From positions 1 through 39,721 of the forward strand of contig PAPR01000016.1 of assembly GCA_002709085.1 (NCBI GenBank): a DNA stretch of 39,721 nt. The letters are read 5' to 3'. This DNA comes from Pseudooceanicola sp. (GTDB lineage: Bacteria; Pseudomonadota; Alphaproteobacteria; Rhodobacterales; Rhodobacteraceae). The notes beneath the pieces were generated by a model. That model did not search any database. It was not told where the DNA came from and saw only the letters and a list, made by a program, of their open reading frames with translations. This document shows positions 10,411 through 29,900 of the stretch, in pieces. Position numbers and translations under genes: made by a program. Positions within the stretch are counted from its first letter, which is position 1. Each line of letters opens with the position of its first letter.

Positions 10411-10447
10411 CGCCCGCGCCGGTAATCTCTACCCGATATAGCACGAC

Positions 10448-10494
10448 ATCCCAACGGCTTCCTGACGGGGTGGTTAATCATCTATCGGAGCACT
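10448..10494 (+). promoter_or_regulatory. SAM/SAH-type riboswitch in the metK leader
   Basis: The leader directly before metK contains CCAACGGCTTCCTGACG, then GGTTAATCAT, then GGAGCA just before the ATG. This matches what I remember of the SAM/SAH riboswitch class (Rfam SAM-SAH), found upstream of metK in Rhodobacterales. In that class the Shine-Dalgarno segment is drawn into a pseudoknot when ligand binds; here GGAG (10487-10490) can pair with CTTCC (10457-10461). High S-adenosylmethionine would therefore block translation of SAM synthetase. The match was recognised by eye; a covariance-model search was not possible. Confidence 0.85.
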
Positions 10495-14830: not shown

Positions 14831-15016
14831 TCAGCGCCTGAACGGCTCGATCTTATCCGCCGAAAGCGCATAGCCGATGTCCGCCAGTTGCGTGCTGGTC
14901 GATGCCGTTCCGAACATTTCCGCCAACAAGCCTGAACTCTCATAAGGCGTTCCTGTCGTCACGAAAACCAGCTGGTTCGCGGGTGACGGCGAATTGCAGG
15001 AACAAGCGCCTATTAA
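14831..15016 (-). pseudogene. Degenerate second copy of the DUF3299 gene (C-terminal remnant)
   Basis: Read on the minus strand, this stretch encodes IGACSCNSPSPANQLVFV, then a segment ending LADIGYALSADKIEPFRR and a stop at 14831-14833. It aligns with the last third of the intact DUF3299 protein encoded just upstream in transcription (GACIHVPPPPPNQLVFV and LAEIGYEVTADEIEVYVWE). There is no start codon; a stop lies a few codons before the homology, at 15032-15034. It is therefore a 5'-truncated relic of a tandem duplication or of a related gene. Divergence between the two copies indicates it is not a recent duplicate. Confidence 0.75.
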
Positions 15017-15036
15017 ATGTCGTGGGCCCGTTCATT

Positions 15037-15549
15037 TCATTCCCAGACATAGACCTCTATCTCATCCGCGGTCACCTCGTAGCCGATTTCAGCCAGATTG
15101 GTGCGGATCGGATTCACCCGGATCGCCCCTGTCACCCAAATCGCCTCGAACATCGACTCGGCGGGCCAGGGTCGTGCTGACGTCACAAAAACCAATTGGT
15201 TCGGCGGCGGCGGCGGAACGTGGATGCAGGCCCCTACATAGGGGGTCAGAATGAACTCGGTCACGCCACTGCCGCCAGTTTCGAGGGGCAGCATGTAACC
15301 CGGCATCTTTATTGTGACGCCGTTCAGGTCCTCGACGAACTTGAAAGCGTTCTTGTCGAAATTCGGCAACCAAGTGTCATTCTGCTCGTCGTAATCGCCT
15401 TCGCCGACGATTTCGGAATAGGGGACGCCCGTCGGGATAAGATCATCCCAGGTGATTTCCCGAACCGAAGCTGCAAGGGCCGGGTGCCGTGGATATAAGA
15501 GCGATGCACTTGCAAGGCCAAGCAAGGCTGCACGGCGGGATGTACGCAT
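15037..15549 (-). CDS. DUF3299 family exported protein
   Basis: This 170-residue protein has an N-terminal export signal containing a twin-arginine pair (TSRRAALLG) and cleavage near PALAAS, so it probably acts in the periplasm, perhaps through Tat. The mature part (WDDLIPTGVPY, KMPGYMLPLE, TPYVGACIHVPPPPPNQ, WVTGAIRV) matches DUF3299, a small domain often encoded beside FtsX/MacB-like ABC genes. It is the last intact gene of the zur-znuCB-DUF2796-ABC run and begins 13 bp after the permease. A Vibrio zinc-uptake locus (Zrg) is, to my recollection, built from a DUF2796 protein, an ABC ATPase and permease, and a DUF3299 protein. Its biochemical role is unknown. A remnant of a second copy lies downstream. 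Confidence 0.83.
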   Translation of the reverse strand: MRTSRRAALLGLASASLLYPRHPALAASVREITWDDLIPTGVPYSEIVGEGDYDEQNDTWLPNFDKNAFKFVEDLNGVTIKMPGYMLPLETGGSGVTEFILTPYVGACIHVPPPPPNQLVFVTSARPWPAESMFEAIWVTGAIRVNPIRTNLAEIGYEVTADEIEVYVWE

Positions 15550-15562
15550 GTGAACTCCTTTT

Positions 15563-16816
15563 TCAGCGTCTGACGGTCATGCCATCCGACAATGAGAGCC
15601 GGTAGGCGCGAAGCGCCGGGAACAGGCTGGTGAGGGCGGCGGCGAGAATGACGCCGATCACAACAATTCCCTCCCGCGAGGACAGTGGCTCTATCGGCAA
15701 GTATAGACCGAATGCGGTATCGACGTAAGGTCGCAGCGCCCACAAGCCTGTGTAGAGCAAGGCGATCCCCAGCAGAACGGCGATCAGCGCCATCAGCACC
15801 GCCTCCAGCATCAGGAGGCCCATGATCGTCAGCGGTCGCGCGCCGACCGCACGCAAGATCGCCATTTCCCGACGTCGTTCATTCAGGCCGGAAAATATCA
15901 TTGCGGCCATGCCCAGAAGCGCCGTTGCCACAACCATCGCCGAAACGCCGATCAGCGCCGTTTCGGCAATGCCGACGATGCCCCACAGCTCCTGCAAGGC
16001 CACGCCAGGCAGGACGGCCAGAAGGGGTTCTTCGGGATACTGGTTGATGCTGCGTTGCAAGGCAAAGATTTGGAGGCGGGATTTTACGCCGATCATGGCA
16101 GCTGTGATCGCACCGGGCGTCAGGTCCATCTGCCTGATTTCATCGGGCGACGTCATCTGACCGGGAATCTGCGCGCCGCCCTGCCAATCCACATGGATGG
16201 CCTCGATCGCTTCGAGGCTGACGACGACGGTGCGGTCGACCGGCGTGCCGGTCTTGGCGAGGATGCCCGTGACACGAAACGGCTGATTGTCATGATTGGC
16301 GAACGACGCAAGCCCATGCGCCACAACTAGCGGATCACCAATCGCATAGCCCAGCGATGCGGCCACATCCGCCCCGATCACCGCATCGAAGAGATCATTG
16401 AAGGCACGGCCTTCGGCAAACTCCAGCGATCGTCCGCCGCGATACTTGTAGCGCGCGAAATACTCGGCTGTCGTGCCCATGACGCGGAACTGCCGGTGCG
16501 AATCCCCCAGCGAGATCGGTACGATCCACTCTACTTCAGGTCGGGCGGCAATGTCCTGATAGCTTTCCCACGTGGCGTTGTTGGTCGCGTTGCCAATACG
16601 GAACACGGAATAGAGCAAGAGCTGCACGGAACCCGACCGGGCCCCCACGATCAGGTCGGTCTCTGAGATCGTGTCGCCGAAACTTGCTTTCGCCCCCGTG
16701 CGCACCTTTTCGACGCCCAGGAACAATGCGACCGACAAGGCGACCGCAAAGATCGTCAGGCCAACTGTCAGACGACGCGCGATCAGGCTGCGTAGAGCGA
16801 GGCGCAACAGGATCAT
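15563..16816 (-). CDS. FtsX/MacB-like ABC transporter permease
   Basis: This 417-residue permease of the FtsX type has one N-terminal helix (about residues 18-36), a large periplasmic MacB-core-like domain, and three C-terminal helices (around ALIGVSAMVVATALLGMAAM, MALIAVLLGIALLYTG and IVVIGVILAAALTSLFPAL). Permeases of this kind move lipoproteins or peptides or drive periplasmic partners rather than importing ions directly. Its start overlaps the ATPase stop (ATGA), so the two form one transporter. Position between a DUF2796 and a DUF3299 gene resembles the Vibrio zrg zinc locus, which supports a zinc-related role; the cargo is unknown. Confidence 0.87.
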   Translation of the reverse strand: MILLRLALRSLIARRLTVGLTIFAVALSVALFLGVEKVRTGAKASFGDTISETDLIVGARSGSVQLLLYSVFRIGNATNNATWESYQDIAARPEVEWIVPISLGDSHRQFRVMGTTAEYFARYKYRGGRSLEFAEGRAFNDLFDAVIGADVAASLGYAIGDPLVVAHGLASFANHDNQPFRVTGILAKTGTPVDRTVVVSLEAIEAIHVDWQGGAQIPGQMTSPDEIRQMDLTPGAITAAMIGVKSRLQIFALQRSINQYPEEPLLAVLPGVALQELWGIVGIAETALIGVSAMVVATALLGMAAMIFSGLNERRREMAILRAVGARPLTIMGLLMLEAVLMALIAVLLGIALLYTGLWALRPYVDTAFGLYLPIEPLSSREGIVVIGVILAAALTSLFPALRAYRLSLSDGMTVRR

Positions 16817-17526
16817 GCGGCGCCCTCGCGCGTCAGTGTGGCGATGTCTTCCATTCGAACGCTGCGATCAAAGCGAGGGGCCAGCCGTTCGTCATGGCTG
16901 ACCATCAACAACGTCGATCCGGCAGCCGAGCATTGCGCGAACAGCAGGTCGAGGAAATTCGCCTGCGATCCGGCGTCGAGCGCGGACGTGGGTTCGTCAG
17001 CAACGATGAGGGAAGGTGCGCCGATCAGGGCGCGCGCCACCGCCACGCGCTGCTGCTGGCCGACGCTGAGGCGGTCGGCCGTTGAGGAGGCCATCTTATC
17101 TCGTGCAAGGCCTAGCGCGTCGGTCAGGATAAGGGCGGCGTTCTGCGCATCCCCGACTCGGCCCCGTCGCTCAGGCGCGAAACGCAGCGGCAGCAGGATG
17201 TTATCCACGGCCGAGGCGTAAGGCAGCAGGTTGAATTGCTGGAACACGATTCCGATCGCCTCGGCCCGGAAGCGGTCCCGCGCGGCGGGGCGCATTGTCA
17301 CCATCTCGGTTCCATCCACGCGGATCGAGCCGCGTGTCGGTGCATTGATACCGCAGATCAGTGACAGAAGGGTGGATTTACCCGAGCCGCTTTCACCAAG
17401 CAAAAGCACCCGCTCGCCCCGCCTGATGCGGAAACTGGACACGCCCAAGCCGAAGGCATCGCGTCCGCCCCAGTGAAATTGGACCTGATCTAGGGCCAGG
17501 GCGAATTGAGTATCCGTATCGCTCAC
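16813..17526 (-). CDS. LolD/MacB-like ABC transporter ATP-binding protein
   Basis: This 237-residue ATPase has all ABC motifs: Walker A GESGSGKST, Q-loop in FQQFNLLPYASA, signature LSVGQQQRVAVARAL, Walker B LIVADEPTSALD and switch His in MVSHDERL. The initiation codon is GTG 17526, with a G-rich segment upstream and only 13 bp from the DUF2796 stop. Sequence type places it with LolD/MacB/FtsE ATPases that serve FtsX-like permeases, which matches its overlapping downstream partner. It is distinct from the ZnuC ATPase in the same run, so the operon encodes two different ABC systems. Confidence 0.9.
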   Translation of the reverse strand: MSDTDTQFALALDQVQFHWGGRDAFGLGVSSFRIRRGERVLLLGESGSGKSTLLSLICGINAPTRGSIRVDGTEMVTMRPAARDRFRAEAIGIVFQQFNLLPYASAVDNILLPLRFAPERRGRVGDAQNAALILTDALGLARDKMASSTADRLSVGQQQRVAVARALIGAPSLIVADEPTSALDAGSQANFLDLLFAQCSAAGSTLLMVSHDERLAPRFDRSVRMEDIATLTREGAA

Positions 17527-17539
17527 CCGCGTCCCCCGG

Positions 17540-18139
17540 TCAGATCAGTCCCGACAGATCGAGAACGGGGGCGGCGCGCTTGACCTCGAAGCCTTGCGAT
17601 CCTTTGCCTGAAACCATCTGCACCTCAACCTCCTGCGCATTCGGAAACACGTCGAAAAAGACGAAATCGATACCGTCAAGAGCGCTCGGATCAGCGCAAT
17701 CCAGCAAATATTCCGCGTGGAATTCGGTATGTCCCGCGCCCTCTTTCTCTGCGTGATCGTCATGCGCATGGTCTTCGCCTTCGGCCTCATGTTCGTGCTC
17801 GGCATGCTTCTCAGCGTCATCGTGGTGCTCGTCGATCAGGCCCGCGTTTGACGAGACGACCGTGCAGCCAGCCGCATCCGGCAGGACAAAAAGCGCCAGC
17901 GGCTTTGACAGCTTCGCAATCGCCGCGTCAAGTTTCGCGAGGTCCTCGGCTGTTTCCGCCTCATACTCGAATCCAACGATATCAACGCCGGGAGCTTCAA
18001 GCTCCATAGCGACCTGCGTACCTTCGATGGCGATATTCAGTGCAGAGTGTCCGTGTTCGTGAGCGCCAAGCTCCCTCGTCTCCTGTCCGAGAAGCGAGGA
18101 CGGCACCATGAGAGCGATCACCAAAGCTGTCTTGTTCAT
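17540..18139 (-). CDS. DUF2796 (ZrgA-like) histidine-rich periplasmic protein
   Basis: This 199-residue protein has a signal peptide (MNKTALVIALMVPSSLLG) and starts at ATG 18139, with GGAG upstream. The mature N-terminus reads RELGAHEHGHSALNIAIEG, typical of DUF2796. Residues about 105-150 are very rich in His, Asp and Glu (KHAEHEHEAEGEDHAHDDH), a flexible metal-collecting stretch. ZrgA of Vibrio cholerae belongs to this family and is part of a zinc-uptake locus. Here it follows znuB by 38 bp and precedes the FtsX-like ABC pair, so it could bind zinc for either transporter. Function in alphaproteobacteria is inferred only. Confidence 0.85.
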   Translation of the reverse strand: MNKTALVIALMVPSSLLGQETRELGAHEHGHSALNIAIEGTQVAMELEAPGVDIVGFEYEAETAEDLAKLDAAIAKLSKPLALFVLPDAAGCTVVSSNAGLIDEHHDDAEKHAEHEHEAEGEDHAHDDHAEKEGAGHTEFHAEYLLDCADPSALDGIDFVFFDVFPNAQEVEVQMVSGKGSQGFEVKRAAPVLDLSGLI

Positions 18140-18177
18140 ATTGTCATCTCCGTTCCAAGACTTCTGGATTAATGTGC

Positions 18178-18978
18178 TCACTGGGCAGACGTACGAAGGC
18201 TTCCCACGATGCTGAGCGCCGCGAAAATCAGGGCGGCGACACAAACTATGGAGGGTCCCGCCGGTGTGTCGAGGATATAGGCTGCGCGCAGTCCGACCAG
18301 GGCCGAGACACTGCCGATGCCTGCCGCCACCAAGGCCATGCCCTCGGGGGTGCGGCTGAGGGGTCTGGCCGCGGCGGCCGGGATGATCAGCAACGCGGCG
18401 ATGAGCAAGACACCCACGACCTTGATCGCGACGGCAACGGTGATGGCGAGCGACAGCGTCAGGATCAGTTGTTCCCGTTTGGGTTCGAGGCCGCTGGCGT
18501 GGGCCAGATCCTCGTTCAGCGTCGCGGTCAGCAACGCCGACCACCGCCACGCGATTAGCGCCACGACAAGGGCCGCACCGCCCCAGATCACGGCCAGATC
18601 GGTGCGTGATACGGCCAGAATGTCGCCGAAGAGGTATGCCATCAGGTCAATCCGAATGCCGGACAGGAACGACACCGCAACCAGTCCGAAGGCAAGAGCG
18701 GAATGCGCAAGCACACCCAGAAGGGTGTCCATCGCGTAGCCCCGCCCAGTCAACAGGTTGACCGTCAGCGCCATCAGAAGTGCGATCACCAGGGCCCCCG
18801 CAAACACAGAAATCGAAAGGGCCAGCGACAGGGCGACGCCGAGGATCGCGGCATGGGCCGTCGCGTCACCAAAATAGGCCATGCGCCGCCAGACGACGAA
18901 GCAGCCCAGAGGGGCCGCCGCCAGCGCTACACCGATTCCGGCAAGGGTTGCCCGCATCATGAAATCATCCAGCATCAT
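18178..18978 (-). CDS. znuB: ZnuB, zinc ABC transporter permease
   Basis: This 266-residue, highly hydrophobic protein of the ABC-3 (ZnuB/TroC) family has about eight membrane helices. The family landmarks WRRMAYFGDATAHAAILG near the N-terminus and VVGVLLIAALLIIPAAAA near the middle-to-end are clear. With ZnuC and ZnuA it makes the high-affinity zinc importer. Its ATG (18978, with a second ATG at 18975) overlaps the znuC stop. Gene order zur-znuC-znuB is the common alphaproteobacterial arrangement. Confidence 0.93.
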   Translation of the reverse strand: MMLDDFMMRATLAGIGVALAAAPLGCFVVWRRMAYFGDATAHAAILGVALSLALSISVFAGALVIALLMALTVNLLTGRGYAMDTLLGVLAHSALAFGLVAVSFLSGIRIDLMAYLFGDILAVSRTDLAVIWGGAALVVALIAWRWSALLTATLNEDLAHASGLEPKREQLILTLSLAITVAVAIKVVGVLLIAALLIIPAAAARPLSRTPEGMALVAAGIGSVSALVGLRAAYILDTPAGPSIVCVAALIFAALSIVGSLRTSAQ

Positions 18979-19721
18979 TCGGCGGCTTCCGTGTTCTCGT
19001 GTCTGTGATCGTGGTCATGCGTGTGATCGTGATCGTGACGATAGAGTGCCAGCGCGCCCATCGTTCCCGACCCGAACAGCGCGCGGTATTCCGGCGCCGA
19101 CGCGACCACCTCTGGCGTACCTTCGCAGCAAACATGACCATTGAGGCAGATCACCCGATCCGACGCGCTCATCACCACGTGCAATTCGTGGCTGATCATC
19201 AGGACGGTGCAGCCTGTCTCGCGCCGCACCTTCTCTATCTGGCTATAGAAGGCTGCGGAGCCGGGTTGGTCCAGCCCCTGCGTCGCTTCATCAAGAAGGA
19301 GGAGGTGAGGCTTGTCGATCAGTGCGCGCGCCAGCAGTACGCGCTGGAACTGCCCGCCGGAAAGTCGCGACATCTGGGCAGCCGCAAGGTCTGGCACCCC
19401 CGCCTGTGCAAGTGCCTCGTCGATGGCTTCAGGCGCCACCCTAGTTGGCAAACGCAAGAACCGTGCGACTGTCATCGGTAGCGTCGGGTCGATATGCAGC
19501 CGCTGCGGAACGTATCCTACCCGCAGGTCGGACCGTTGCGTCACCCGCCCTTGGGACGGCTTTACAGCCCCGATGATAGATCGCAGAAGGCTGGTCTTGC
19601 CGGAACCATTCGGGCCCACGATCGTCACGATCTCGCCAGGCTCAATGCTAAGTGAAACCTGAGACAAGACCGTTTTAGCACCGTAGCTGATGCTCAGATT
19701 CTCGACCTTTACAAGACTCAT
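18975..19721 (-). CDS. znuC: ZnuC, zinc ABC transporter ATP-binding protein
   Basis: This 248-residue ATPase has Walker A VGPNGSGKTS, signature RLSGGQFQRVLLARAL, Walker B LLLLDEATQGLD and switch His in MISHELHVVM. It ends in a histidine-rich tail (HDHDHTHDHDHRH), as many ZnuC proteins do, which may sense or buffer cytoplasmic zinc. I chose ATG 19721, which overlaps the zur stop by ATGA; a longer frame to 19874 lies inside zur and is not plausible. It energises ZnuB. Confidence 0.94.
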   Translation of the reverse strand: MSLVKVENLSISYGAKTVLSQVSLSIEPGEIVTIVGPNGSGKTSLLRSIIGAVKPSQGRVTQRSDLRVGYVPQRLHIDPTLPMTVARFLRLPTRVAPEAIDEALAQAGVPDLAAAQMSRLSGGQFQRVLLARALIDKPHLLLLDEATQGLDQPGSAAFYSQIEKVRRETGCTVLMISHELHVVMSASDRVICLNGHVCCEGTPEVVASAPEYRALFGSGTMGALALYRHDHDHTHDHDHRHENTEAAE

Positions 19722-20248
19722 GCGCGCACATCCTCGGCGGGTTTTTCCGCGCAGGTCGGACACACACCTTCGGCTTCGACCACAGTGCGCTCGATTCGAA
19801 AGCCGGTCGCGCGTGCGGCAGCGCCCAAGGCACCCCGCGCCGGGGTCGACTGTGCCTCGGCCACGGAGTCGCACATGCGGCAGATCATGAAGGCTGGAGC
19901 GTGGGTTTCTCCGGGGTGGGCGCAGGCGATAAAGGCGTTGAGTCGCTCGATCTTGTGCGCCAGGCCGTTGCTTACGAGGAAGTCGAGCGCGCGGTAAGCG
20001 ACGGGCGGCTGAGACCCGAAGCCCTCATCGCGCAATCGGTCGAGAATGACATAAGCGCCGAGAGCACGATGCTCTTGCAGCAAAATTTCCAGGACTTTGC
20101 GACGCACCGGGGTGAAGCGAAGACCCTCCCTGTTGCATCGTACTTCGGCGGCCGAAAGCCCGTCCACGACGCATGAGGCATGGTCGTGGCGCGAGAAGCC
20201 TACCGGCGTAGTCGCGTCTTCCGGAGCAATGGGAGAGCCACTTGTCAT
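19718..20248 (-). CDS. zur: Zur, Fur-family zinc uptake regulator
   Basis: This 176-residue Fur-family repressor binds zinc and shuts off uptake genes when zinc is plentiful. The winged-helix recognition region (LRFTPVRRKVLEILL) and two cysteine pairs for the structural zinc site (ICRMC, and CPTC near the C-terminus) are visible. Position at the head of znuCB and opposite znuA identifies it as Zur rather than Fur or PerR. The ATG at 20248 has no Shine-Dalgarno sequence and abuts one arm of the palindrome at 20249-20287, so the message may be nearly leaderless; a TTG at 20263 is the only alternative upstream. Confidence 0.93.
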   Translation of the reverse strand: MTSGSPIAPEDATTPVGFSRHDHASCVVDGLSAAEVRCNREGLRFTPVRRKVLEILLQEHRALGAYVILDRLRDEGFGSQPPVAYRALDFLVSNGLAHKIERLNAFIACAHPGETHAPAFMICRMCDSVAEAQSTPARGALGAAARATGFRIERTVVEAEGVCPTCAEKPAEDVRA

Positions 20249-20287
20249 GTTATCACGTTTCAATTAGAGCAGATGAAACGTTATAAG
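20249..20287. promoter_or_regulatory. Zur operator candidate in the zur/znuA divergent promoter
   Basis: A 13-bp inverted repeat, GTTATCACGTTTC and GAAACGTTATAAG, matches at 11 of 13 positions and is separated by 13 bases. It fills the gap between the divergent zur and znuA genes. Both arms contain a GTTAT element like that in the perfect palindrome at 21492-21506. One Zur site here would control both znuA and zur-znuCB. Confidence 0.5.
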
Positions 20288-20304
20288 ATCACATGGAGGA
20301 CCAG

Positions 20305-21213
20305 ATGTCCAGAACGCTCCTGTCTCTTTCCCTCGCCGCTGTCCTGACGGGAGGGGCCGCCCTCGCCGAGGCGCCGCGTGTGGCCACGGATATTGCGCCA
20401 GTTCATTCACTTGTCGCGCGCGTCATGGATGGCGTCGGGTCACCCGAGCTGATCGTTCAACGCGGGGCCAGTCCGCATGAATATTCGTTACGCCCCTCCG
20501 AGGCCGCCGCGTTACAGGAGGCTGATCTGGTTTTCTGGATCAGCCCTGACCTAACCCCATGGCTAGGGGATGCGATTGAGACCTTGGCGAGCAATGCTTC
20601 GGTAACCGGATTGCTCGAAGCCGACGGGACGATCCAGCTCGAGTTCAGGGAAAGTGCCCTGTTTGAAGCGCATGAGCACGCGGAGAGCGGCCACGACCAC
20701 GGTGAACATGATCCCCATGCATGGTTGTCACCGCAGAACGCCGCGACTTGGCTCAATGTGATCGCAGGACAGCTTTCCGCTGCCGACCCGGAAAATGCCG
20801 GAGCCTACTTCGCAAATGCAGCCGCTGGGCGGACAGAAATTGACACGCTGTCCGCCGATGTCAGAGCCTTGCTGGAACCCGTGCGGGGCGGACGGTTCAT
20901 CGTCTTCCACGACGCCTACCAATATTTCGAGTCTGCCTTTGAGTTGTTCGCCTCCGGGGCAATTTCGGTCAGCGATGCCTCCGATCCCAGCCCGGCCAGG
21001 CTCGCCGAAATTCGTAAGAGAATCGCGGACGAGGGTATCGACTGCGTGCTGGCAGAGCCGCAATTCAATGCAGGGCTTGTCGCCACAGTGCTGGATGGCA
21101 CCGAAGCGAAAACAGGCGTTCTTGACCCGTTGGGGTCCGATCTTGAGTCCGGTCCGGCGCTCTATCCCCAGCTCATCCGCAATCTCGCATCAACCCTTGC
21201 GGAATGCCTGTGA
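20305..21213 (+). CDS. znuA: ZnuA, periplasmic zinc-binding protein
   Basis: This 302-residue cluster A-I solute-binding protein has a signal peptide (SLSLAAVLTGGAALAEA) and ligand-type residues of ZnuA: His58 in GASPHEYSLRPSEA, a His-rich loop (HEHAESGHDHGEHD) followed by PHAWLSP, and His in FHDAYQYFE. I chose ATG 20305, which has GGAGG 5 bases upstream; ATG 20293 would place that sequence inside the gene. It captures zinc in the periplasm for ZnuBC and is transcribed divergently from zur-znuCB. The His loop makes a zinc role more likely than manganese. Confidence 0.93.
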   Translation: MSRTLLSLSLAAVLTGGAALAEAPRVATDIAPVHSLVARVMDGVGSPELIVQRGASPHEYSLRPSEAAALQEADLVFWISPDLTPWLGDAIETLASNASVTGLLEADGTIQLEFRESALFEAHEHAESGHDHGEHDPHAWLSPQNAATWLNVIAGQLSAADPENAGAYFANAAAGRTEIDTLSADVRALLEPVRGGRFIVFHDAYQYFESAFELFASGAISVSDASDPSPARLAEIRKRIADEGIDCVLAEPQFNAGLVATVLDGTEAKTGVLDPLGSDLESGPALYPQLIRNLASTLAECL

Positions 21214-21249
21214 CACCGAACAAGGCACAAATGTCAGCGAGGAAGCGCC

Positions 21250-21469
21250 TTGGCCGGTAGGTGTCCGCAACTGATAGGCCTTGTCATCCTCTTGTGGGTG
21301 ATGTGTCCCGGCAAGGAAGCCGAGGCACATCCCCATATCTTCGTCGACGCCCGAGCGGGGTTCCTGTTCGACGAGCGTGGTCACCTGAACGCTTTGAGGA
21401 TTCGATGTCATCGGTGGGTTGTTGATCGTGATCCTCAGCTTCGGCATGTTGTTGCCCTACCTGCCATGA
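21250..21469 (+). pseudogene. Remnant of a DUF1007 gene fused to the tail of a membrane protein gene
   Basis: A signal-peptide-like stretch (LIGLVILLWVMCPGKEAEA) leads into AHPHIFVDARAGFLFDERG, the unmistakable N-terminus of DUF1007 periplasmic proteins, which often accompany nickel/cobalt or zinc permeases. Homology stops near 21403. From 21404 a different frame encodes DVIGGLLIVILSFGMLLPYLP and a stop, which looks like the last helix of a membrane protein. So one deletion probably removed most of the DUF1007 gene and all but the end of a following permease gene. It lies between znuA and the COG0523 gene, a place where such genes are expected. Confidence 0.7.
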
Positions 21470-21491
21470 CTTGTCATTTTTGCGTCAATAT

Positions 21492-21506
21492 TGTTATGTC
21501 ATAACA
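21492..21506. promoter_or_regulatory. Zur-like palindrome upstream of the COG0523 gene
   Basis: TGTTATG-T-CATAACA is a perfect 7-1-7 palindrome, 34 bases before the ATG of the COG0523 gene. It fits the TGTTATN3ATAACA pattern expected for alphaproteobacterial Zur sites. This would make the downstream metallochaperone, and probably the chain to the AztD-like gene, zinc-starvation inducible. Confidence 0.75.
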
Positions 21507-21540
21507 TATCACGAATCATTTTGTATAGAGTTGACCCTGA

Positions 21541-22647
21541 ATGACCGTTGCCGCTTTGACGACCGATACACGCTTGCCCGTCACCCTGCTGACCGGCTTT
21601 CTCGGCGCGGGAAAAACCACGCTTCTGAATTCGGTAATGCGCGCGGAAACTGGACCAAAGATTGCCGTCATCGTGAACGAGTTTGGCGAGGCTGGCCTGG
21701 ATCACGATCTAATCGAATCCGTGGATGAAGAAATCATCCTGATGCAATCGGGCTGTCTGTGCTGCTCGGTTCGAGGCGATCTGACGCGCACGATGGCGGA
21801 CCTGATCGAACGCAGACAAGCTGGGGACATCGCTTTCGAGCGCGTGGTAATCGAGACGACGGGCCTGGCCGATCCCGGCCCGATCCTGCAAACTCTGCTG
21901 GTCGATCCCTATCTTGCGCGCAACGTACGTATGGATGGCGTTGTGACAGTCGCCGATGCCGCCACGGGGCCTGATACGCTCGACAGGCAGTTCGAGGCCG
22001 TGTCACAGATCGCGATGGCGGATCTGCTGGTGCTCAGCAAGACAGATCTCGTCTCGTCAGCGACGGCAGAGACCTTCGAGAGGCGGCTCAGCGGGCTCAA
22101 TCCGACGGCGCGAATCCTGCGTGCCGGTCAGAAAACCCCTTCGGACGGCGCCCTGTGGAACCTGAGCGGCCTGCGAAATACCGCGACACCGAAGCAAACT
22201 CTGGGCTGGCTTACCCCCGGTGACCCTGCTCCGGATCCGTTTGCCAATTTATCTGGTCTCGCTCCGGCCCGATCCACAACAGACGCGACATTTTCGCCGC
22301 ATGATGCGCGAATAGGCTCGGCCTCCATCGTACTGGACGGTCCCATCCCCGGTGCCGACTTCGACCTCTGGCTCGATACGCTGATCGCACTGCGCGGACC
22401 GGACATCCTGCGCGTGAAAGGCGTCGTGTTCCTCGAAGGTATCGAGACGCCCTTCGTCTTTCACGGTGTTCAGCATGTGTTCGATCCGCCCGTGCCGGTG
22501 CGGGATTGGCCCGCCGGCGACCGACGCTCCCGCATCGTTGTGATTGCGCGCGACATGACCCGCCCCGAACTCGTGCGCAATCTCGACATGCTGCGCGCGG
22601 GGGTTCCTGGAACAACCGACACTCTTCGTTCCGAGGACCCTGCATGA
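21541..22647 (+). CDS. COG0523 family zinc metallochaperone GTPase (ZigA/ZagA-like)
   Basis: This 368-residue G3E GTPase has Walker [13 protein letters not shown] (residues 19-30), the metal-binding CxCC motif GCLCC with Cys72, Cys74 and Cys75, a Walker B-like [10 protein letters not shown], the guanine-specificity motif SKTD, and a C-terminal CobW domain ([22 protein letters not shown]). Zur-controlled members of this family deliver scarce zinc to essential enzymes. The operator just upstream and the zinc neighbours support that role over cobalamin synthesis. Its stop overlaps the start of a second, truncated COG0523 gene. Confidence 0.9.
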
Positions 22648-22925
22648 AACATGAAAAATTGCCCGTAACCGTCCTTTCCGGCTTTCTCGGGGCCGGCAAA
22701 ACCACCCTGCTGAACCGTGTCCTGAACAACCGCGACGGCCGGCGGGTTGCGGTCATCGTCAATGATATGTCCGAAGTCAACATCGACGCCGATCTCGTGC
22801 GTGCGGACACCGACCTCAGCCGAACTGAGGAGACGCTGGTGGAAATGTCCAACGGCTGTATCCGTTCCCCGGCTGGCGGCGGGCGGAGGCAGCGGCGTGA
22901 ACCAGCAAACCCTGTTCGCTCCTGA
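22644..22925 (+). pseudogene. Second COG0523 GTPase gene, truncated after the first cysteine of CxCC
   Basis: ATG 22644 overlaps the stop of the preceding COG0523 gene. The first 73 residues are a normal COG0523 N-terminus ([42 protein letters not shown]). Homology ends exactly within the metal motif: after NGCI the expected CC is missing and a short unrelated tail runs to a stop at 22925. About three quarters of the protein is gone, so it cannot function. The break coincides with the start of the DUF1826 remnant, pointing to one deletion. Confidence 0.85.
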
Positions 22926-23223
22926 TGCGGCACTAAGCATCGTTGTGACCGACACGCCTGAACGTCCTGTCGACGCCGTGACTGCGCGCCTCATCTGCAC
23001 CTATCGGGGCACGGGCACTCAATACGGTGTTTGGATGGATGGGGCTCAACCCCGCCGCGTAATCACGTCCCCGACCGGCGCATCCATCGCCCTGCGTGGA
23101 CCCGAGGGGCCCGAGCGCCCCGCGTCCGGTCTGATGCACCGCTCGCCCCCTATCGAGAGTTCGGGCGAAACACGGCTGGTGCTGGTTCCCGATCCGATTT
23201 TCGACCCCGAGGAGGCTGCATGA
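22897..23223 (+). pseudogene. DUF1826 gene, C-terminal portion only
   Basis: The frame encodes VDAVTARLICTYRGTGTQYG and further RGPEGPERPASGLMHRSPP, the hallmark C-terminal part of DUF1826, a family commonly found beside Zur-regulated COG0523 genes. The N-terminal half is missing and the segment just before VDAV looks shortened. GTG 22897 with GGAGG upstream could still start translation of a 108-residue product, so a truncated protein may be made. I call it a pseudogene because it adjoins the broken second COG0523 gene. Confidence 0.7.
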
Positions 23224-23477
23224 AGCGCAACCTCGGCGCGACAACACTGAAACGTCGTTAAAAGACCGTCGATCCGATGGGCACATACGATGCGCTTCCG
23301 CCAGTCCTGCGCCGGTGGCTTGCCGAGGCTACGTTGCCTTGGTCTCCGACATCCTGCCGCCGTATCTGGCTTTCGGCACTGGCAAAGGGTGACGGCGAAG
23401 CGGCGGCAATCGCGCGCCTTGAGCGTGCGGAGCGCAAGACGCTCTCCCGCGATCGGTTCGCCCGATCCACCCTGTAA
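23220..23477 (+). pseudogene. DUF6525-like small protein gene interrupted by an in-frame TAA
   Basis: From ATG 23220 (overlapping the DUF1826 stop) the frame reads MKRNLGATTLKRR, then TAA at 23259-23261, then continues in the same frame with KTVDPMGTYDALPPVLRRW and on to a stop at 23475-23477. Both halves match what I recall of a short Rhodobacterales protein family (start MxxNLGATxLRRR, then DALPPxLRxWLAxAxLPWSP), so one base change has split an 85-codon gene. An ATG at 23277 could give a 66-residue product, but no ribosome-binding site is evident. Function of the family is unknown; the family name is from memory. Confidence 0.65.
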
Positions 23478-23506
23478 ATATCTTATCAACACTGAAAGGA
23501 AAGAAT

Positions 23507-24709
23507 ATGAACAGTCTCGGACTATCTATTGCCTCGCTTGGCGTGCTTGCGGCAATGGCCACGCCCGCCTTTGCCGACGATGAAGCTGTTGCATGGCGTC
23601 TCATTGTCGCAGATCACACGTCACCAACAGTTTCAGTTATTGACCTGAATGAACCGGAGAACCGCTGGACCTTCGATCTTGCTGGACCGGCTAAGCTCTA
23701 CTCGACGGCCGATGAGGCACTGGTCATCGCCGTCAAATCCGACAACGAACAAGTCGATTTTCTGCAAAGCGGATTGGCCGTTGAGAAACATGGCGGTCAT
23801 GCAGATATCGAGGTGTCCGAGCCGAGCCATATCGGCACGATCGACGGCCCGCGCCCATTTCATGTGGTGAATGATAGCGGGTCGGTTGCCATCACCTTCG
23901 ACAAGGGCGGTTACGCATCCGTTCTCGACGAGAGCGCGGTTCTGGAGGGCGACCTTACAGAGCAGACAATCCCGATGAACGTCGCACATCATCGTTTTGT
24001 GGCGGATATGGGCGGTTACTTCGTGAGTTCTGTCGCGTCCGAGGCACCCATGGACGAAGGCAAGGCCCCGCCTCGCATCGGTATCGGCAGTTTTGCGGCC
24101 GACGGCACCCCAATAGGCGAAATGCACACCTGCACCGATCTGCATGGCGAGACGTTTTCAGGCACCTTTCTGGTGGCTGGGTGCAAGGAGGGCGTTATCG
24201 CACATGACACGACGGGGGGGCCGGATGCCTTCACCATGCTGCCCTATCCCGCCGATTTCCCCGAAGACAAGACCGGTTTCCTGCTCGGTGCCAAAGCGAT
24301 GCAAATTTTTCTGGGAGACTATGATGGAATCTCGGTTGTTATCCTAGATCCCACGACATCGCCCTATTTCACGCGTGTAGAGCTACCCTTCCGCGAGGTC
24401 GATTTCATCCTCGATCCAGTGAAGCCGCAAATGGCCTATATCCTGACTGAGGACGGATCGCTGCACCGGCTCAATATGTTATCGGCCGAGCAGAGTGCAC
24501 AGATCACCCAGCCTTATTCGATGGACGGCCACTGGCGCGACCCGCGGCCGCGGGTGACCTTGGCGGATGACCGTCTAATCCTGACCGATCCGCTGGAGGC
24601 AACCTTGCGCGTCATCGGCACGGAAAACCTATCTGATATCGAAACCATCGCAGTCGAAGGCATTCCGTACAACGTGATTGCGGTGGGCGGCAGCGGCCTC
24701 ACACACTGA
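23507..24709 (+). CDS. AztD-like periplasmic zinc chaperone
   Basis: This 400-residue exported protein has a clear signal peptide (LGVLAAMATPAFADD) and a good ribosome-binding site (AAAGGAAAG before ATG 23507). The mature part is built of repeated beta-rich segments consistent with a propeller, with scattered conserved His residues (VADHTSP, HGGHAD, RPFH, VAHHRF, MHTCTDLHGE) and the C-terminal AVGGSGLTH. Length and these features match AztD of Paracoccus, a periplasmic protein that hands zinc to its partner solute-binding protein. Here the likely partner is ZnuA, encoded in the same cluster, since no aztABC genes are near. Assignment is by recognition, not by alignment. Confidence 0.8.
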   Translation: MNSLGLSIASLGVLAAMATPAFADDEAVAWRLIVADHTSPTVSVIDLNEPENRWTFDLAGPAKLYSTADEALVIAVKSDNEQVDFLQSGLAVEKHGGHADIEVSEPSHIGTIDGPRPFHVVNDSGSVAITFDKGGYASVLDESAVLEGDLTEQTIPMNVAHHRFVADMGGYFVSSVASEAPMDEGKAPPRIGIGSFAADGTPIGEMHTCTDLHGETFSGTFLVAGCKEGVIAHDTTGGPDAFTMLPYPADFPEDKTGFLLGAKAMQIFLGDYDGISVVILDPTTSPYFTRVELPFREVDFILDPVKPQMAYILTEDGSLHRLNMLSAEQSAQITQPYSMDGHWRDPRPRVTLADDRLILTDPLEATLRVIGTENLSDIETIAVEGIPYNVIAVGGSGLTH

Positions 24710-24819: not shown

Positions 24820-25382
24820 TTATGAGTTAGCTCTGTTCAGGTTTTGATCTTTCTTTGACCGTTTAGCATATTCCACCGGTGTCAAGCCAGAGAGGCTGGA
24901 ATGAGGGCGGTGGTGATTTGAATCATCGCGCCACGCCGCCGCCAAATTGCGGGCATGGCGAAGGCTGTCAAATAGCTGCTCGTTCAAACATTCGTCCACT
25001 GCCCGGCAGTGCATGTTTACATGCATGAGAGGGGCGCATACGTCCATTGAAGCTTTCGACGAAGTCGTTCTGCATCGGCTTGTGTGGGGCGATGGAATGC
25101 CACTCGACTTTGCGATCTTTCTGCCACTTCAGGATCGCGTTGCTGGTCAGGTCGGTGCCGTTATCGTTGACCACCATGCAAGGGTAGCCCCGCGTCTCTG
25201 CAATCCGGTCCAGTTCACGGGCAACGCGGGCTCCTGAGAGCGACGTGTCGACCACAGCAGCCAAACATTCCCGGCTGAAGTCGTCGATCACGTTCAAGAG
25301 GCGGAATTGGCGACCGCAGGATAGTCTGTCAGACACGAAGTCCAGGCTCTACCGCTGGTTTGGTCCCTGCGGGACCGCCACT
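24820..25382 (-). pseudogene. IS3-family transposase OrfB, broken
   Basis: The rve integrase core is clear: SLDFVSD and NVIDDFSREC (first Asp), VVNDNGTDL (second Asp) and DFVESFNGRMR (Glu), then DECLNEQLFDSLRHARN and RPHSSLSGLTPVEYA. Three defects are visible. The 5' part is missing beyond 25382. The Trp codon of the expected NQRWSLDF is TAG. A 37-bp insertion at 24997-25033 separates NGRMR from DECLNE and shifts the frame. The protein is certainly dead. Confidence 0.85.
24997..25033. repeat. 37-bp double-hairpin insertion inside IS3 orfB
   Basis: Between the codons for NGRMR and DECLNE, which are normally contiguous, 37 extra bases are found. They consist of two adjacent palindromes, CACTGCC-C-GGCAGTG and TGCATGT-TT-ACATGCA, sharing two bases, plus seven to eight bases. 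No duplicated target site is obvious. The origin is unknown. Confidence 0.8.
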
Positions 25383-25450: not shown

Positions 25451-26470
25451 ATGACAGTCGCATTTATTGGAATTGACTTGGCCAAGAACGTGTTCCAGTT
25501 GCACGGCGCAAATAATGACGGACAGGCCGTATTGAAGCGCCGCATCCGCCGGGATTTGACAGCTACTGGCAGAGATTGCTGAGCTGGAGCCCTGCATCAT
25601 TGGCGTCGAGGCCTGCACTGGCGCGTTTCACTGGCAAAGGCAGTTCAAGGCACTTGGCCACACGGTCAAGGTGATCGCGCCGCAGTTTGTGAAGCCCTTC
25701 GTCAAGCATCAGAAGAACGATCAGAATGATGCTGAGGCCATTTGCACCGCCTTGATGCTGGCGAACATGAAGGTCGTGCCAACCAAGTCAGAAGAACAAC
25801 AAGACATTCAGGCGCTGCATCGGGCGCGACGCCGCCTCCTCAATCACAGGACGGCACTGGTGAGCCAGATGCGCGGCCTGCTGTTGGACCGCGGCATACC
25901 GATCGCCTTATCAAGCGGGCGTGCGCGGCGCGCTATCCCAGAGATCCTCAAAGACCGGACGAACGGACTGACTGCAATGAGCCGGGAGGTTATTGGCGAT
26001 CTGTTCGACTTCATGGACCAGATCGACGCGCGCATCACGGTCTTTGATCGCCGGATCGACGCGGTCTTCAAGTCCAACGAGGATTGCCGCCGGATCGCAC
26101 GCATCTGCGGTGTCGGCCCGAAGACTGCAACGGCTGTTGTTGCCGCAGTGGGCGATGGTCGGGAGTTCAAGAACGGCCGGCATCTGGCGGCGTGGATGGA
26201 GCTGGTTCCCCGACAGCATTCCAGTGGCGACAAGAGGCTGCTCATGGGGATCAGCAAGCGCGGAGACAGGCATCTGCGAACGCTGCTGGTTCACGGCGCC
26301 AGATCCGTGGTCCGGTGGCTCAGCGCAAGACCGACCCCTTCAGTCAATGGGTCAACAACCTCCGCGAACGACGTGGCATGAACCGCGCCATCGTCGCCGT
26401 GGCCAACAAGAATGCCCGGATCATCTGGATCGTGCTCAACAAAAACAAGGAGTTCCGCGCCCCCGTTTAA
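25451..26470 (+). pseudogene. IS110/IS1111-family transposase with two frameshifts
   Basis: ATG 25451, preceded by GGAGAGAG, begins MTVAFIGIDLAKNVFQLHG, with the first catalytic Asp. The frame is lost near 25555-25562 and resumes as LLAEIAELEPCIIGVEACTG (catalytic Glu), then KNDQNDAEAI (Asp pair). The IS116/IS110/IS902 domain follows (ICGVGPKTATAVVAAVGDG, HLAAWMELVPRQHSSG). A second, probably one-base deletion near 26313 separates HGARSVVR from AQRKTDPFSQWVNNLRERR; the gene ends at TAA 26468-26470. With two shifts no full-length transposase can be made. Confidence 0.88.
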
Positions 26471-26947: not shown

Positions 26948-29900
26948 TCAATGGAAATCCCGGCTCGGGAACAATTTCTTCGCCTGATCGCGGGGATGCC
27001 GTGCGCCTGCGCGAATGCTGCCGCCGGGAGGGCGGCGTGTCTCGTCCGCACGGCCGTCGTTTGTCGCGAACGGTGCGCCGTGGCCGAGGGTTGAGAGCAG
27101 GGGCGAGACATCTTCAACATGTTCGGCAATCAGGTGGACCACTTGCCCTTCACGCTGAATCTGACCCGTCACGCGCAAGAGGCGACCTGCAATGACCTCC
27201 TTGCGGAAAGTCTCGTAGATCTTGGTCCAGACCACCACATTGGCGGTGCCGGTTTCGTCCTCCAGGGTCAGGAACACCACACCCGAGGCGGTGCCAGGGC
27301 GCTGGCGGGTGATGACGAGGCCGGTCACGGTGATCCGCCCGGCAGTCTGCGCCACGCACTCATGGGCCATGCTGTCGGGCAGGCGGGGGCGGAGCAGTTC
27401 CAGCGGGTGGGCGCGCAAGCTGAGGCGCAGGGAGAGGTAGTCTTCGACGACCTGCTGCCCGAGCGTCATATCGGGGAGCGCGACCTCGGGCTCTGTTGTG
27501 CCCTCGCCATCGGTGCCGAACAGCGGCAGCGGCTTTGGTGCGCGCAACGCGCGGGCGGCCCAGAGAGCGGCGCGGCGGTTGAGGCCGATCTGCGCGAAGG
27601 CATCCCCCTCGGCCAGCCGCTCCAGCGCCCTGGGTGGCACACCGGCCCGACGCCACAGGCTTTCCACATCGGGATATCCGTTGCCGCGCGCGGCTTTGAT
27701 CCAAGCGGCATCTTCCTCGCGCATGCCCTTGATCTGGCGAAACCCCAGCCGTAGCGCAAGCGCGCCGTCGCTGCGCGGTTCCAGCGTGCAATCCCAGGCC
27801 GAGTGATTGACCGAGACGGGGCGAATCTCGATGCCATGCTCGCGCGCATCACGCACCAGTTGCGCGGGCGCATAGAACCCCATCGGCTGGCTGTTCAAGA
27901 GCGCACAGGTAAAGACCGCCGGGTGATGGCATTTGAGCCAGGCCGAGACATAGACCAGCCGCGCGAAGCTGGCGGCGTGGCTTTCCGGAAAACCATAACT
28001 GCCAAATCCTTCGATCTGGGCAAAACAGCGCTCGGCGAAATCCGCCCCGTGGCCGCGCGCCAGCATGCCCGACACGAACCGCTCGCGGAAGGCACCGATG
28101 GTTCCCATGCGCTTGAAGGTGGCGAGGCTGCGGCGCAGGCGGTCGGCCTCGGCGGGGGAAAACCCGGCGGCGACCACGGCGATCTGCATCGCCTGCTCCT
28201 GAAACAGCGGCACGCCATAGGTTCGGCCCAACACATCCATCAACGCGGGGCCCAGATCCTCGACCGCCTCCTTGCCCTGGCGGCGATTGATGAAGGGATG
28301 CACCATGCCGCCCTGGATCGGACCGGGGCGCACGATGGCCACCTCGCAGACCAAATCGTAGAATTTGCGCGGTCGCATGCGCGGCAGAAAGTTGAGTTGC
28401 GCGCGGCTTTCGACCTGAAACACCCCGATGGCGTCTGCGCGGCAGAGCATGTCGTAAACCGCCGCATCCTCGGGCGGCACATTGGCCAGCGTCAGATGCT
28501 GTTGGCGATGATCGGCCAGAAGCCCAAACGCCTTGCGGATGCAGGTCAGCATCCCGAGCGCCAGGATATCGACCTTCAACAGCCCGAGCGCGTTGATATC
28601 GTCCTTGTCCCATTCGATGATGGTGCGGTTTTCCATCGCCGCATTCTCGATCGGGCAAAGCTCATCGAGCCGGCCGTGCGTGATGACGAAACCGCCGACA
28701 TGCTGGGACAGGTGACGGGGAAAGCCGATGATTTCGCCGATCAGCTTCGCCGCCAGCGCCACGCGGCTATCGGCGGGATCAATTCCGGCATCGCGCATCC
28801 TGTCCTCGTCGGGCGCGCTGGATGACCAGCCCCAAATCTGCCCCGACAGCCGCGCAATCACGTCCTGGCTGAGGCCCATCACCTTGCCGACCTCGCGAAT
28901 GGCGGCGCGCGAACGGAAATGGATCACCGTCGCGGTCAGCCCGGCGCGCTCGCGGCCATAACGCGCGTAAATCCACTGGATCACCTCCTCGCAGCGCTCA
29001 TGCTCGAAATCCACGTCGATATCGGGTGGCTCGCCGCGTTCCTTGCTGATGAACCGCTCGAAGATGAGGGTGATGGATTCGGGCGGCACCTCGGTCACTC
29101 CCAGAAGGTAGCAGACCACCGAATTGGCCGCCGAGCCGCGCCCCTGACAGAGGATGCCCTTCGAGCGCGCGAAGGCCACGATGTCATGCACCGTCAGGAA
29201 ATAGGGCGCATAGCCCATCTCGTCGATCAGCCTCAGTTCCTTGTCGACCCGTGTGACGATCCTGGCGGGCGGCCCCTTGGGATAGCGCCAGTGCAGCCCC
29301 TCGCGTGACAGCCGTTCCAACCGGGTCTGCGCGGGTTCGTCGTCCTGCGCCTCATCCGGGTATTGATAGCGCAGGTCATCAAGGCGAAAGGCGCAGGCAT
29401 CGGCGATCTCCAGCGTGCGGCGAATGGCGGCGGGATGGCGGTGGAACATGCGGGCCATGTCGGCGGGCGCTTTCAGCCGCCGCTCGCCATTGGTCAGGCG
29501 CTGCGTGCCGATATTGTCGATGGTGCAGCCCACGCGCAGGCAGGTCAGCACATCGGTCAGCGGACGGCGCGCGGCACGGTGCATCAGCACATCGCCCACC
29601 GCCATCATGGGCAGGCCGGTGCTGTCGGCCAGCCGCGCCAAATGGGCGAGCCTTGCTGGGTCGCGCCCGTCATAGCGCGGGGCGGCACCGAGAAAGCAGC
29701 GCCCCGGAAAGGCGCGGGCCATGGTGCGCAGATCGCCCGCCCCCTCTTTCGACCCCTCCAGCGGGTCTGGCGGCAGGGCGATCAGCACCATGCCCCGACC
29801 CCACTCAAGCAGATCGGCGCGCGTCAGGTGGCACGCGCCCTTTTCGGCGCGCCGCTTGCCGAGCGACAAGAGCCGTGTCAGCCGCGACCAGGCGGTGACA

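Follow-up and report, generated by a model that had tools for sequence, protein, structure and literature searches.

Between positions 14831 and 24709 of a stretch of 39,721 nucleotides from Pseudooceanicola sp. (assembly GCA_002709085.1, contig PAPR01000016.1; the whole stretch is called the window below) lies a zinc locus in which the genes of the importer ZnuABC and of the repressor Zur are joined to a Zrg module, zrgACBE, and to a set with a COG0523 GTPase and the metallochaperone AztD. Its parts are known and their arrangement is a new variation: it is a well-formed yet partly decaying zinc-starvation island, which joins Zrg to a classical importer in a single run. Its interest lies in the disputed mechanism of Zrg and in a conserved set of His and Asp residues in the permease ZrgB. 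An earlier interpretation of the letters alone, here called the sequence-only reading, had described an unbroken minus-strand run of zur-znuC-znuB, a DUF2796 protein, an FtsX-like ATP-binding cassette (ABC) pair and a DUF3299 protein, and on the plus strand znuA, a COG0523 gene and an AztD-like protein. Searches with Pfam and NCBIfam models bore out both descriptions (E, expectation value):

15037 to 15549, minus strand: zrgE, DUF3299 protein (PF11736, E 4.7e-36; PDB 4hsp, E 2.4e-27).
15563 to 16816, minus strand: zrgB, MacB/LolC-like (type VII) ABC permease (PF12704 and PF02687, both over cut-off).
16813 to 17526, minus strand: zrgC, ABC ATPase of the FtsE/LolD/MacB kind (PF00005, E 5.7e-31).
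17540 to 18139, minus strand: zrgA, His-rich periplasmic zinc-binding protein, DUF2796 (PF10986, E 2.6e-51, cut-off passed).
18178 to 18978, minus strand: znuB, zinc ABC permease (PF00950, E 5.3e-68; ZnuB model 260 bits, AztB model 204).
18975 to 19721, minus strand: znuC, zinc ABC ATPase (ZnuC model 296.5 bits, AztA model 164).
19718 to 20248, minus strand: zur, zinc uptake repressor (NF008646, E 1.3e-31, below cut-off).
20293 to 21213, plus strand: znuA, zinc-binding protein with a short His-rich loop (PF01297, E 7.7e-62; ZnuA model 201 bits, AztC model 164).
21541 to 22647, plus strand: COG0523 GTPase, intact (PF02492, cobW, E 3.6e-50; PF07683, CobW_C, E 2.9e-19).
23507 to 24709, plus strand: aztD, beta-propeller zinc metallochaperone (NF038015, E 3e-88; PDB 6ck1, E 3.4e-121).

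The seven minus-strand genes follow one another from 20248 to 15037 in the order zur, znuC, znuB, zrgA, zrgC, zrgB, zrgE, and no gap between neighbours exceeds 38 base pairs (bp): zur/znuC, znuC/znuB and zrgC/zrgB overlap by 4 bp each, and the gaps are 38 bp (znuB-zrgA), 13 bp (zrgA-zrgC) and 13 bp (zrgB-zrgE). On the other strand znuA diverges from zur, and the intact COG0523 gene belongs to a set ending in aztD. Since the NCBIfam equivalog cut-offs were missed by ZrgA (176.4 against 185), AztD (296 against 400), ZnuA (201 against 268), ZnuB (260 against 284), ZnuC (296.5 against 306) and Zur (110 against 167), the gene names hold at the level of families. Zur is also narrowly below the Pfam FUR cut-off (22.2 against 23.1), its CxxC pairs aligning with those of neighbours; the best NCBIfam models for ZrgC, FtsE and LolD, are below cut-off, and AztD has no Pfam match. 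A cluster A-I binding protein, an ABC-3 permease and a ZnuC adjoining Zur make up ZnuABC, and a DUF2796 protein beside an ABC ATPase, an FtsX/MacB permease and a DUF3299 protein makes up Zrg.

Because Pfam now names DUF2796 the ZrgA family, what stands behind znuCB is a Zrg module like PA4063-PA4066 rather than a new kind of system. The likeness to the Vibrio Zrg locus, which the sequence-only reading had pointed out, proved correct, the set of zrgA, ATPase, permease and DUF3299 gene matching the published operon. ZrgABCDE of Vibrio (PMC9817125, Table 1) and PA4063-PA4066 of Pseudomonas aeruginosa (PMC8561739) share with it the zrgA gene, the ATPase, the MacB-like permease and the DUF3299 gene, the order A-C-B-E and Zur control (papers are cited by PubMed Central number). 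In contrast to these, the module of the window stands behind zur-znuC-znuB without a box of its own, is followed by a 3' remnant of a second DUF3299 gene (zrgE2), and lacks zrgD (DUF2607), for which there is no room between znuB and zrgE, the DUF2607 model itself not having been run. Some Vibrionaceae also lack zrgD (PMC9817125). The znu part has its counterpart in Paracoccus denitrificans, where zur-znuC-znuB likewise diverges from znuA with Zur boxes in the gap; here zrgACBE is added behind znuB, and AztD lies nearby without aztABC. In the consulted passages of open-access papers on Zrg, DUF3299 and AztD no znu-zrg operon of Rhodobacterales is described, while alphaproteobacterial ZrgA-like proteins beside ABC genes are already in print (PMC7731109).

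The proteins at the two ends of the Zrg module carry well-kept motifs. ZrgA has the site-1 His pair with its acidic partner and the disulfide cysteines, site 1 being assigned via alignments with its structural relatives PDB 7ahw (E 8.3e-28) and 8ezw (E 8.8e-14); over 120 rows H27, H29, E58 and C92 are conserved at 1.00 and C148 at 0.99. The zrgE product has a signal peptide with an RR pair (by eye) and the invariant motif C108-x-H110-x-PPPP-x-NQ, of which C108 and H110 are invariant in an alignment of 97 rows and in another of 7.

The permease ZrgB has a type VII (MacB/LolCDE) fold. Its AlphaFold model (predicted local distance difference test, pLDDT, 74.7; predicted template modelling score, pTM, 0.61) found in Foldseek a best match to LolCDE (E 1e-11) with MacB close behind, at template modelling (TM) scores of about 0.3-0.6 overall and about 0.4 for those two; the 50 matches listed include chains of LolCDE, MacB, YtrEF, YbbAP, HrtBA, BceAB and FtsEX and no ion importer. 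The sequence-only reading was thus right that the FtsX-like pair is not of an ion-import type, the PDB relatives being LolCDE, MacB, YtrEF, YbbAP, HrtBA and FtsEX. Judged from the model, a fold of this class speaks rather for a device that sets periplasmic parts in motion than for a pore. The MacB likeness of the pair is already in print (PMC9820375, PMC11481552). With LolCDE, MacB and FtsEX it shares the large periplasmic permease domain, and with LolCDE and FtsEX the separate ATPase; unlike them, ZrgB has a conserved periplasmic His/Asp set and a zinc-binding partner protein.

This set consists of D105, H107, H167, H175, D194 and H208, which are present in 122 of 122 rows made up of a family sample and the named loci described below. 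A second set has 35 rows, the window and 34 ZrgB of other families; these 34 came from 36 fetched loci, themselves taken from 66 genomes, out of 398, that exceed the cut-off for ZrgA. In it D105, H167, H175, D194 and H208 are kept in all and H107 in 32. The ZrgB of the window contains exactly four His, namely those of the set, and no Cys, and the membrane helices predicted from hydropathy are free of both. Two MacB_PCD paralogues of the same genome (L240 and L242; L and G numbers denote stretches and genomes, respectively) lack the set, and a permease of Ruegeria conchae that stands with DUF3299 and an HlyD-like adaptor, without ZrgA, keeps all six residues. We regard the six as a candidate periplasmic metal site on the grounds of this conservation. 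No conserved His set of ZrgB is described in the consulted passages of open-access papers, among which the first V. cholerae zrg paper is not. The comparison names five invariant ZrgB residues that mutants could probe. The mechanism of Zrg is disputed in print between a zinc importer in Vibrio and a metallophore exporter in Pseudomonas.

How far the module belongs with znu was judged from its neighbourhoods. A scan with ZrgB, one genome per species, found 123 relatives, the best 80 of which were kept as named zrg loci; by their titles these come mostly from Rhodobacterales genera or unclassified Rhodobacteraceae and Alphaproteobacteria, with a Neomegalonema and a 'Proteobacteria bacterium' metagenome-assembled genome besides. 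Of these 80, 77 have ZrgA, 79 ZrgC and 79 DUF3299, and 52 have a second DUF3299 copy. The conserved neighbourhood that the sequence-only reading had wanted to see across Rhodobacterales therefore exists for zrgA-C-B-E and not generally for zrg with znu, since znu genes lie near zrg in just 7 of the 80, a lower bound because some of the contigs are short. These seven differ in layout: zrg stands behind znuB (L115), behind znuB with COG0523 genes (L146), behind znuA (L143, L150, L171) or converges on znuBC-zur (L185, L188). When stretches were instead fetched by ZrgA, which exceeds its cut-off in 58 of 295 family genomes, one of the 58 (L035) had znu genes, in the gene order of the window. Within the genus, ZrgA is over cut-off in 8 of 22 genomes, and plasmid p111 of Pseudooceanicola algae carries znuBC-zur, znuA, two COG0523 genes, DUF1826, DUF6525, zrgACBE and two DUF3299 copies. 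Against the window, with which it shares this gene content, the p111 genes are complete by annotation, zrg follows DUF6525 and not znuB, DUF3299 is present twice, and AztD is missing from the stretch shown. Phaeobacter inhibens, too, has a zrg module on a plasmid.

Two observations on other zrg stretches may be added. In L134 and L183, at about 3.4-8.6 kb of the stretch, genes resembling an Opp/Nik-type ABC importer (by eye) lie between DUF6525 and zrgA and may encode an importer of metallophores within one zinc operon with them; a comparable arrangement is known from the zinc-responsive pden1338-1344 operon (PMC5387054). L089 and L090 have weak ZrgA matches and no recognisable zrg module, with Zur-box-like sites nearby.

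For the control of the locus we built a Zur matrix from five published sites of P. denitrificans (PMC5387054, Table 7), the scores of which give likeness to these sites, not binding. The background was 40 Markov-resampled windows, whose best scores had a mean of 10.9 and a top five of 13.0, 13.3, 13.7, 14.7 and 19.2. The following places were found:

21491 to 21507, no strand assigned: strongest Zur-box-like site of the window, TTGTTATGTCATAACAT (24.3 bits, exceeding all 40 resampled windows).
20242 to 20294, no strand assigned: divergent zur/znuA promoter with Zur-box-like sites at 20247, 20273 and 20278 (scores 13.6, 16.9 and 16.9).

The strongest site lies 33 bp ahead of COG0523. The 13.6 site of the zur/znuA gap is by itself within chance, as resampled windows reach 13.7, 14.7 and 19.2; together the three agree with the layout in P. 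denitrificans (PMC5387054, Table 7). The zur gene probably starts with the ATG at 20248, so that a Zur-box-like site lies against the start codon, again as in that organism. In the znuB-zrgA gap there is no Zur-box-like site (best score -3.2), and scans of the locus for promoters and terminators returned 3 matches against a shuffle mean of 3.4 and 4 against 7.5, respectively. From these sites the locus looks Zur-controlled, and it is from them that we infer regulation in the host organism.

The named loci point in the same direction. Eight could not be scored (three without ZrgA, five too near an end); among the remaining 72 the start of the zrg operon has a site of at least 16 bits in 49, compared with 4 of 585 random windows from the same loci. 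Twenty-one starts score below 14; ten of them immediately follow znu, COG0523 or DUF6525 genes on the same strand (by eye) and a further three lie farther behind such genes, so that an upstream zinc promoter may also read zrg there. As a separate observation, 27 of the 72 modules begin with a short Fur-family gene of their own (for example L150, L185 and L188, where it coexists with a true zur); its CxxC pairs are kept in the eight aligned, and the box of these modules, of the ATTTTATAAAATAACAA type, is slightly unlike the zur/znu box.

It may be asked whether the four systems have anything in common beyond their regulator. On this account Znu, Zrg, COG0523 and AztD would act independently and stand together by the convenience of a shared Zur; the absence of a znu gene from the stretches of 73 of the 80 named loci (some of them short contigs) and from all but one of the 58 fetched by ZrgA speaks for it, as do the Vibrio double mutants, which indicate separate contributions (PMC9820375, PMC9817125). 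However, znu and zrg are found together in several different layouts, and the boxless zrg genes of the window seem to depend on the znu promoter. We consider such independence a real possibility, if short of an even chance.

We think it probable, with some reserve, that the locus is a Zur-controlled zinc-starvation island in which ZrgBC most likely hands on the zinc of ZrgA at the periplasmic His/Asp site. The genes present, the form of the operon, the Zur-box-like sites, the residue conservation and the class of fold are what the data show. When zinc is scarce, Zur would come off its boxes, which lie between zur and znuA and ahead of COG0523; one promoter would then give zur-znuC-znuB-zrgA-zrgC-zrgB-zrgE, with zrg expressed by read-through from znu, the opposite promoter znuA, and a third the genes from COG0523 to aztD. 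ZnuABC would serve as the classical zinc importer and ZrgA would gather periplasmic zinc. ZrgBC, as an ABC pair of the mechanotransmission type, would use ATP to draw zinc from ZrgA at the His/Asp site of ZrgB and hand it on, assisted by ZrgE, with or without its passage across the membrane into the cytoplasm through ZrgB; every such transfer step we infer. AztD would hold periplasmic zinc and may feed ZnuA, and COG0523 would allot zinc in the cytoplasm.

The Vibrio mutants are in line with a part in zinc supply: in V. parahaemolyticus low-zinc growth requires zrgA, and the defect disappears when zinc is supplied (PMC9817125); in V. cholerae loss of zrgA harms low-zinc growth of a znuA-negative strain, and loss of zrgD alone is without effect (PMC9820375 for zrgA). 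Several points weigh against the proposal. Loss of zrgE alone has no effect in V. cholerae either (PMC9820375). In a znuA zrmB strain of P. aeruginosa, loss of PA4065 (ZrgB) slowed low-zinc growth and left cell zinc unchanged, and it raised cobalt and pyochelin, from which export of pyochelin-cobalt was proposed (PMC11481552). Invariance of the ZrgB residues alone is no proof that they bind metal; confidence in the ZrgB model is medium, with residues 169-174 beside H175 below pLDDT 50, and the alignment of the paralogue L242 is unstable in the His/Asp region, where the letters differ between two alignments. No site of at least 16 bits was found at 23 of the 72 zrg starts, and P. denitrificans AztD gives its zinc to AztC and reportedly not to ZnuA (PMC6689063, citing earlier work). 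Finally, damage to zigA, DUF1826, DUF1007, DUF6525 and the second DUF3299 gene suggests that the island is partly decaying.

The PA4065 data are a ground for taking Zrg as an exporter of a metal-chelating small molecule or of excess metal that would help at low zinc only indirectly; such a role would also suit a fold in the class of MacB, LolCDE and HrtBA, and the HlyD-like adaptor beside DUF3299 in the related set of Ruegeria conchae. Against an exporter stand the repair by zinc of the zrgA growth defect of V. parahaemolyticus and the zinc-binding ZrgA beside ZrgBC in 77 of 80 loci. No MacA-, TolC- or TonB-type neighbour, and no other adaptor or outer-membrane component, was recognised (by eye, without a family search) among the sequence clusters common to at least five of the 80 zrg loci, and none of the seven minus-strand genes encodes a MacA-like adaptor, the rest of the genome not having been searched for a partner. 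We judge the exporter unlikely. On the same survey a locally encoded tripartite outer-membrane pump has no support, and for the suggestion of the sequence-only reading that the ABC pair might act at the outer membrane there is no local indication.

A broader form of the hand-over proposal would place ZrgBC in a wider group of MacB-type ABC systems that pass zinc between periplasmic proteins without membrane transport, the His/Asp residues of ZrgB being the transfer site and proteins of the DUF3299 type receivers or gates. Alkaline phosphatase is a zinc enzyme. In all seven regions opened that hold related pairs (L236, L237, L238, L243, L244, L245 and L246) the annotation gives the order alkaline phosphatase, small protein, ABC ATPase and FtsX-like permease, the phosphatase having been checked with Pfam in two. 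Each of the three permeases compared has D105, H167, D194 and H208; H175 is present in two, and H107 is absent from all three. A CPFC motif occurs in the three small proteins inspected, and by hhalign (probability 86%) this protein is remotely related to DUF3299. We put forward this wider grouping as a speculation that is rather doubtful; if true, it would reconcile the growth data from Vibrio with the finding that cell zinc did not change in P. aeruginosa.

In AztD of the window no ligand of site 1 or site 2 has been lost, and the cysteine pair and the C-terminal His are likewise in place (ligand list in PMC6689063); it agrees in these with AztD of the P. denitrificans AztABCD system, from which the locus differs in that aztA, aztB and aztC were not found and AztD ends a COG0523 set. 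The sequence-only reading had noted that aztABC are absent, which holds for the assembled genome (77% complete): its ABC-3 permeases are confined to znuB and a two-permease Sit-type cluster on contig C9, whose binding protein reaches 176 bits with the AztC model against a cut-off of 350. AztD matches occur in 16 of 295 genomes, two of them weak and four at about 170 bits, and in 3 of the 22 genomes of the genus, one weak. Fifteen AztD genomes, 14 from the 295-genome sample and the same-genus G677, were searched for AztC: the best score was 322 to 358 bits in three (G083, G094 and G091), one (G273) has an AztC fragment beside AztD at a contig end, and in the other 11 no score exceeded 212 bits, four of these having a distant AztD-like protein only. 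AztD without AztC is thus common in the genomes searched, and the chaperone often stands without its known partner there; a pairing of AztD with Znu is plausible. That AztD occurs near ZnuA-family and CobW genes has already been described (PMC6689063). The distant AztD-like group (about 170 bits; L104, L105, L102 and L103) follows COG0523 genes, lacks the site 2 Asp in four of four and keeps the His set of site 1.

AztD could also be the leftover of a lost aztABCD operon and have no present partner, as the want of aztABC in the assembly and the several broken neighbouring genes might be taken to mean. Against this, AztD is intact with every known ligand, and AztD without AztC recurs in comparable company: in G677 it lies near zigA-like COG0523 genes and znuBC-zur-znuA, and on a Salipiger plasmid beside zigA-DUF1826, with no aztABC within the 19-kb stretch (the rest of that genome was not searched). 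This explanation seems to us improbable.

The damaged or doubtful genes are the following:

About 14833 to 15016, minus strand: zrgE2, 3' remnant of a second DUF3299 gene (DNA match to the intact copy of L035).
21280 to 21429, plus strand: DUF1007 fragment, a remnant (PF06226, E 4.1e-8).
22644 to 22862, plus strand: zigA-like second COG0523 gene, 5' remnant (residues 1-74 of 403 of a relative).
22933 to 23217, plus strand: DUF1826, 3' remnant (PF08856 positions 116-200 of 202).
23277 to 23477, plus strand: DUF6525, probably start-less (PF20135 positions 19-78 of 78, E 4.8e-25).

The left edge at 14831, as drawn by the sequence-only reading, takes in the zrgE2 remnant; DUF1007, the zigA-like gene, DUF1826 and DUF6525 had been overlooked. 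Between 14833 and 14991 the zrgE2 remnant is 70.7% identical in DNA to the intact second copy of L035 (174 columns, E 8e-19), its conserved GACxHxPPPPxNQ core being degraded when translations are compared; in the Jannaschia pohangensis stretch L115 a single DUF3299 copy was found. The DUF1007 fragment has 52% identity to residues 23-69 of a 232-residue open frame of L188, the zigA-like remnant 81% to residues 1-74 of one intact relative and 85% to residues 4-76 of another, and the DUF1826 remnant 58% to residues 119-211 of 212 of a relative.

The block from zrgE into znuA (15037-20675) shares 82% DNA identity with J. pohangensis and 76% with L035, and its eight proteins have 76-95% and 66-92% identity, respectively (ZrgB matches at 93% in Jannaschia); for a plasmid stretch from the same genus (L254, in all probability P. 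algae p111 once more) the protein values are 43-82%. The flanking gene at 26948-30358 encodes an error-prone DNA polymerase (DnaE2 by eye) whose identity is 69-70% in three genomes of the same genus, 60-61% in a further five, 60% in G141 (the genome of L035) and 52% in J. pohangensis; the matches run full to its end in the first three and in J. pohangensis and stop near residue 1000 in the other five and in G141. For Jannaschia the order of similarity is therefore reversed between block and flank, while G141 is no more distant in DnaE2 than five genomes of the same genus. Since the block is closest to Jannaschia and the flanking gene is not, the block may have moved as a unit; horizontal exchange is the simplest account, for which a single accessory flanking gene is thin evidence.

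At the right border lie insertion sequence genes (rve, 24968-25336, and an IS110-type gene, 25671-26381), and the segment 25044-25170 has 75% identity to DNA that adjoins znuA in L115. An Rfam scan had no match inside the locus and detected elsewhere in the window a SAM-SAH riboswitch at 10443-10492 (51.2 bits). In the same genus, stretch L259 of G677 shows a larger zinc-starvation island, in which HisI- and threonyl-tRNA-synthetase-like paralogues (by eye) stand beside COG0523, DUF1826, AztD and znu.

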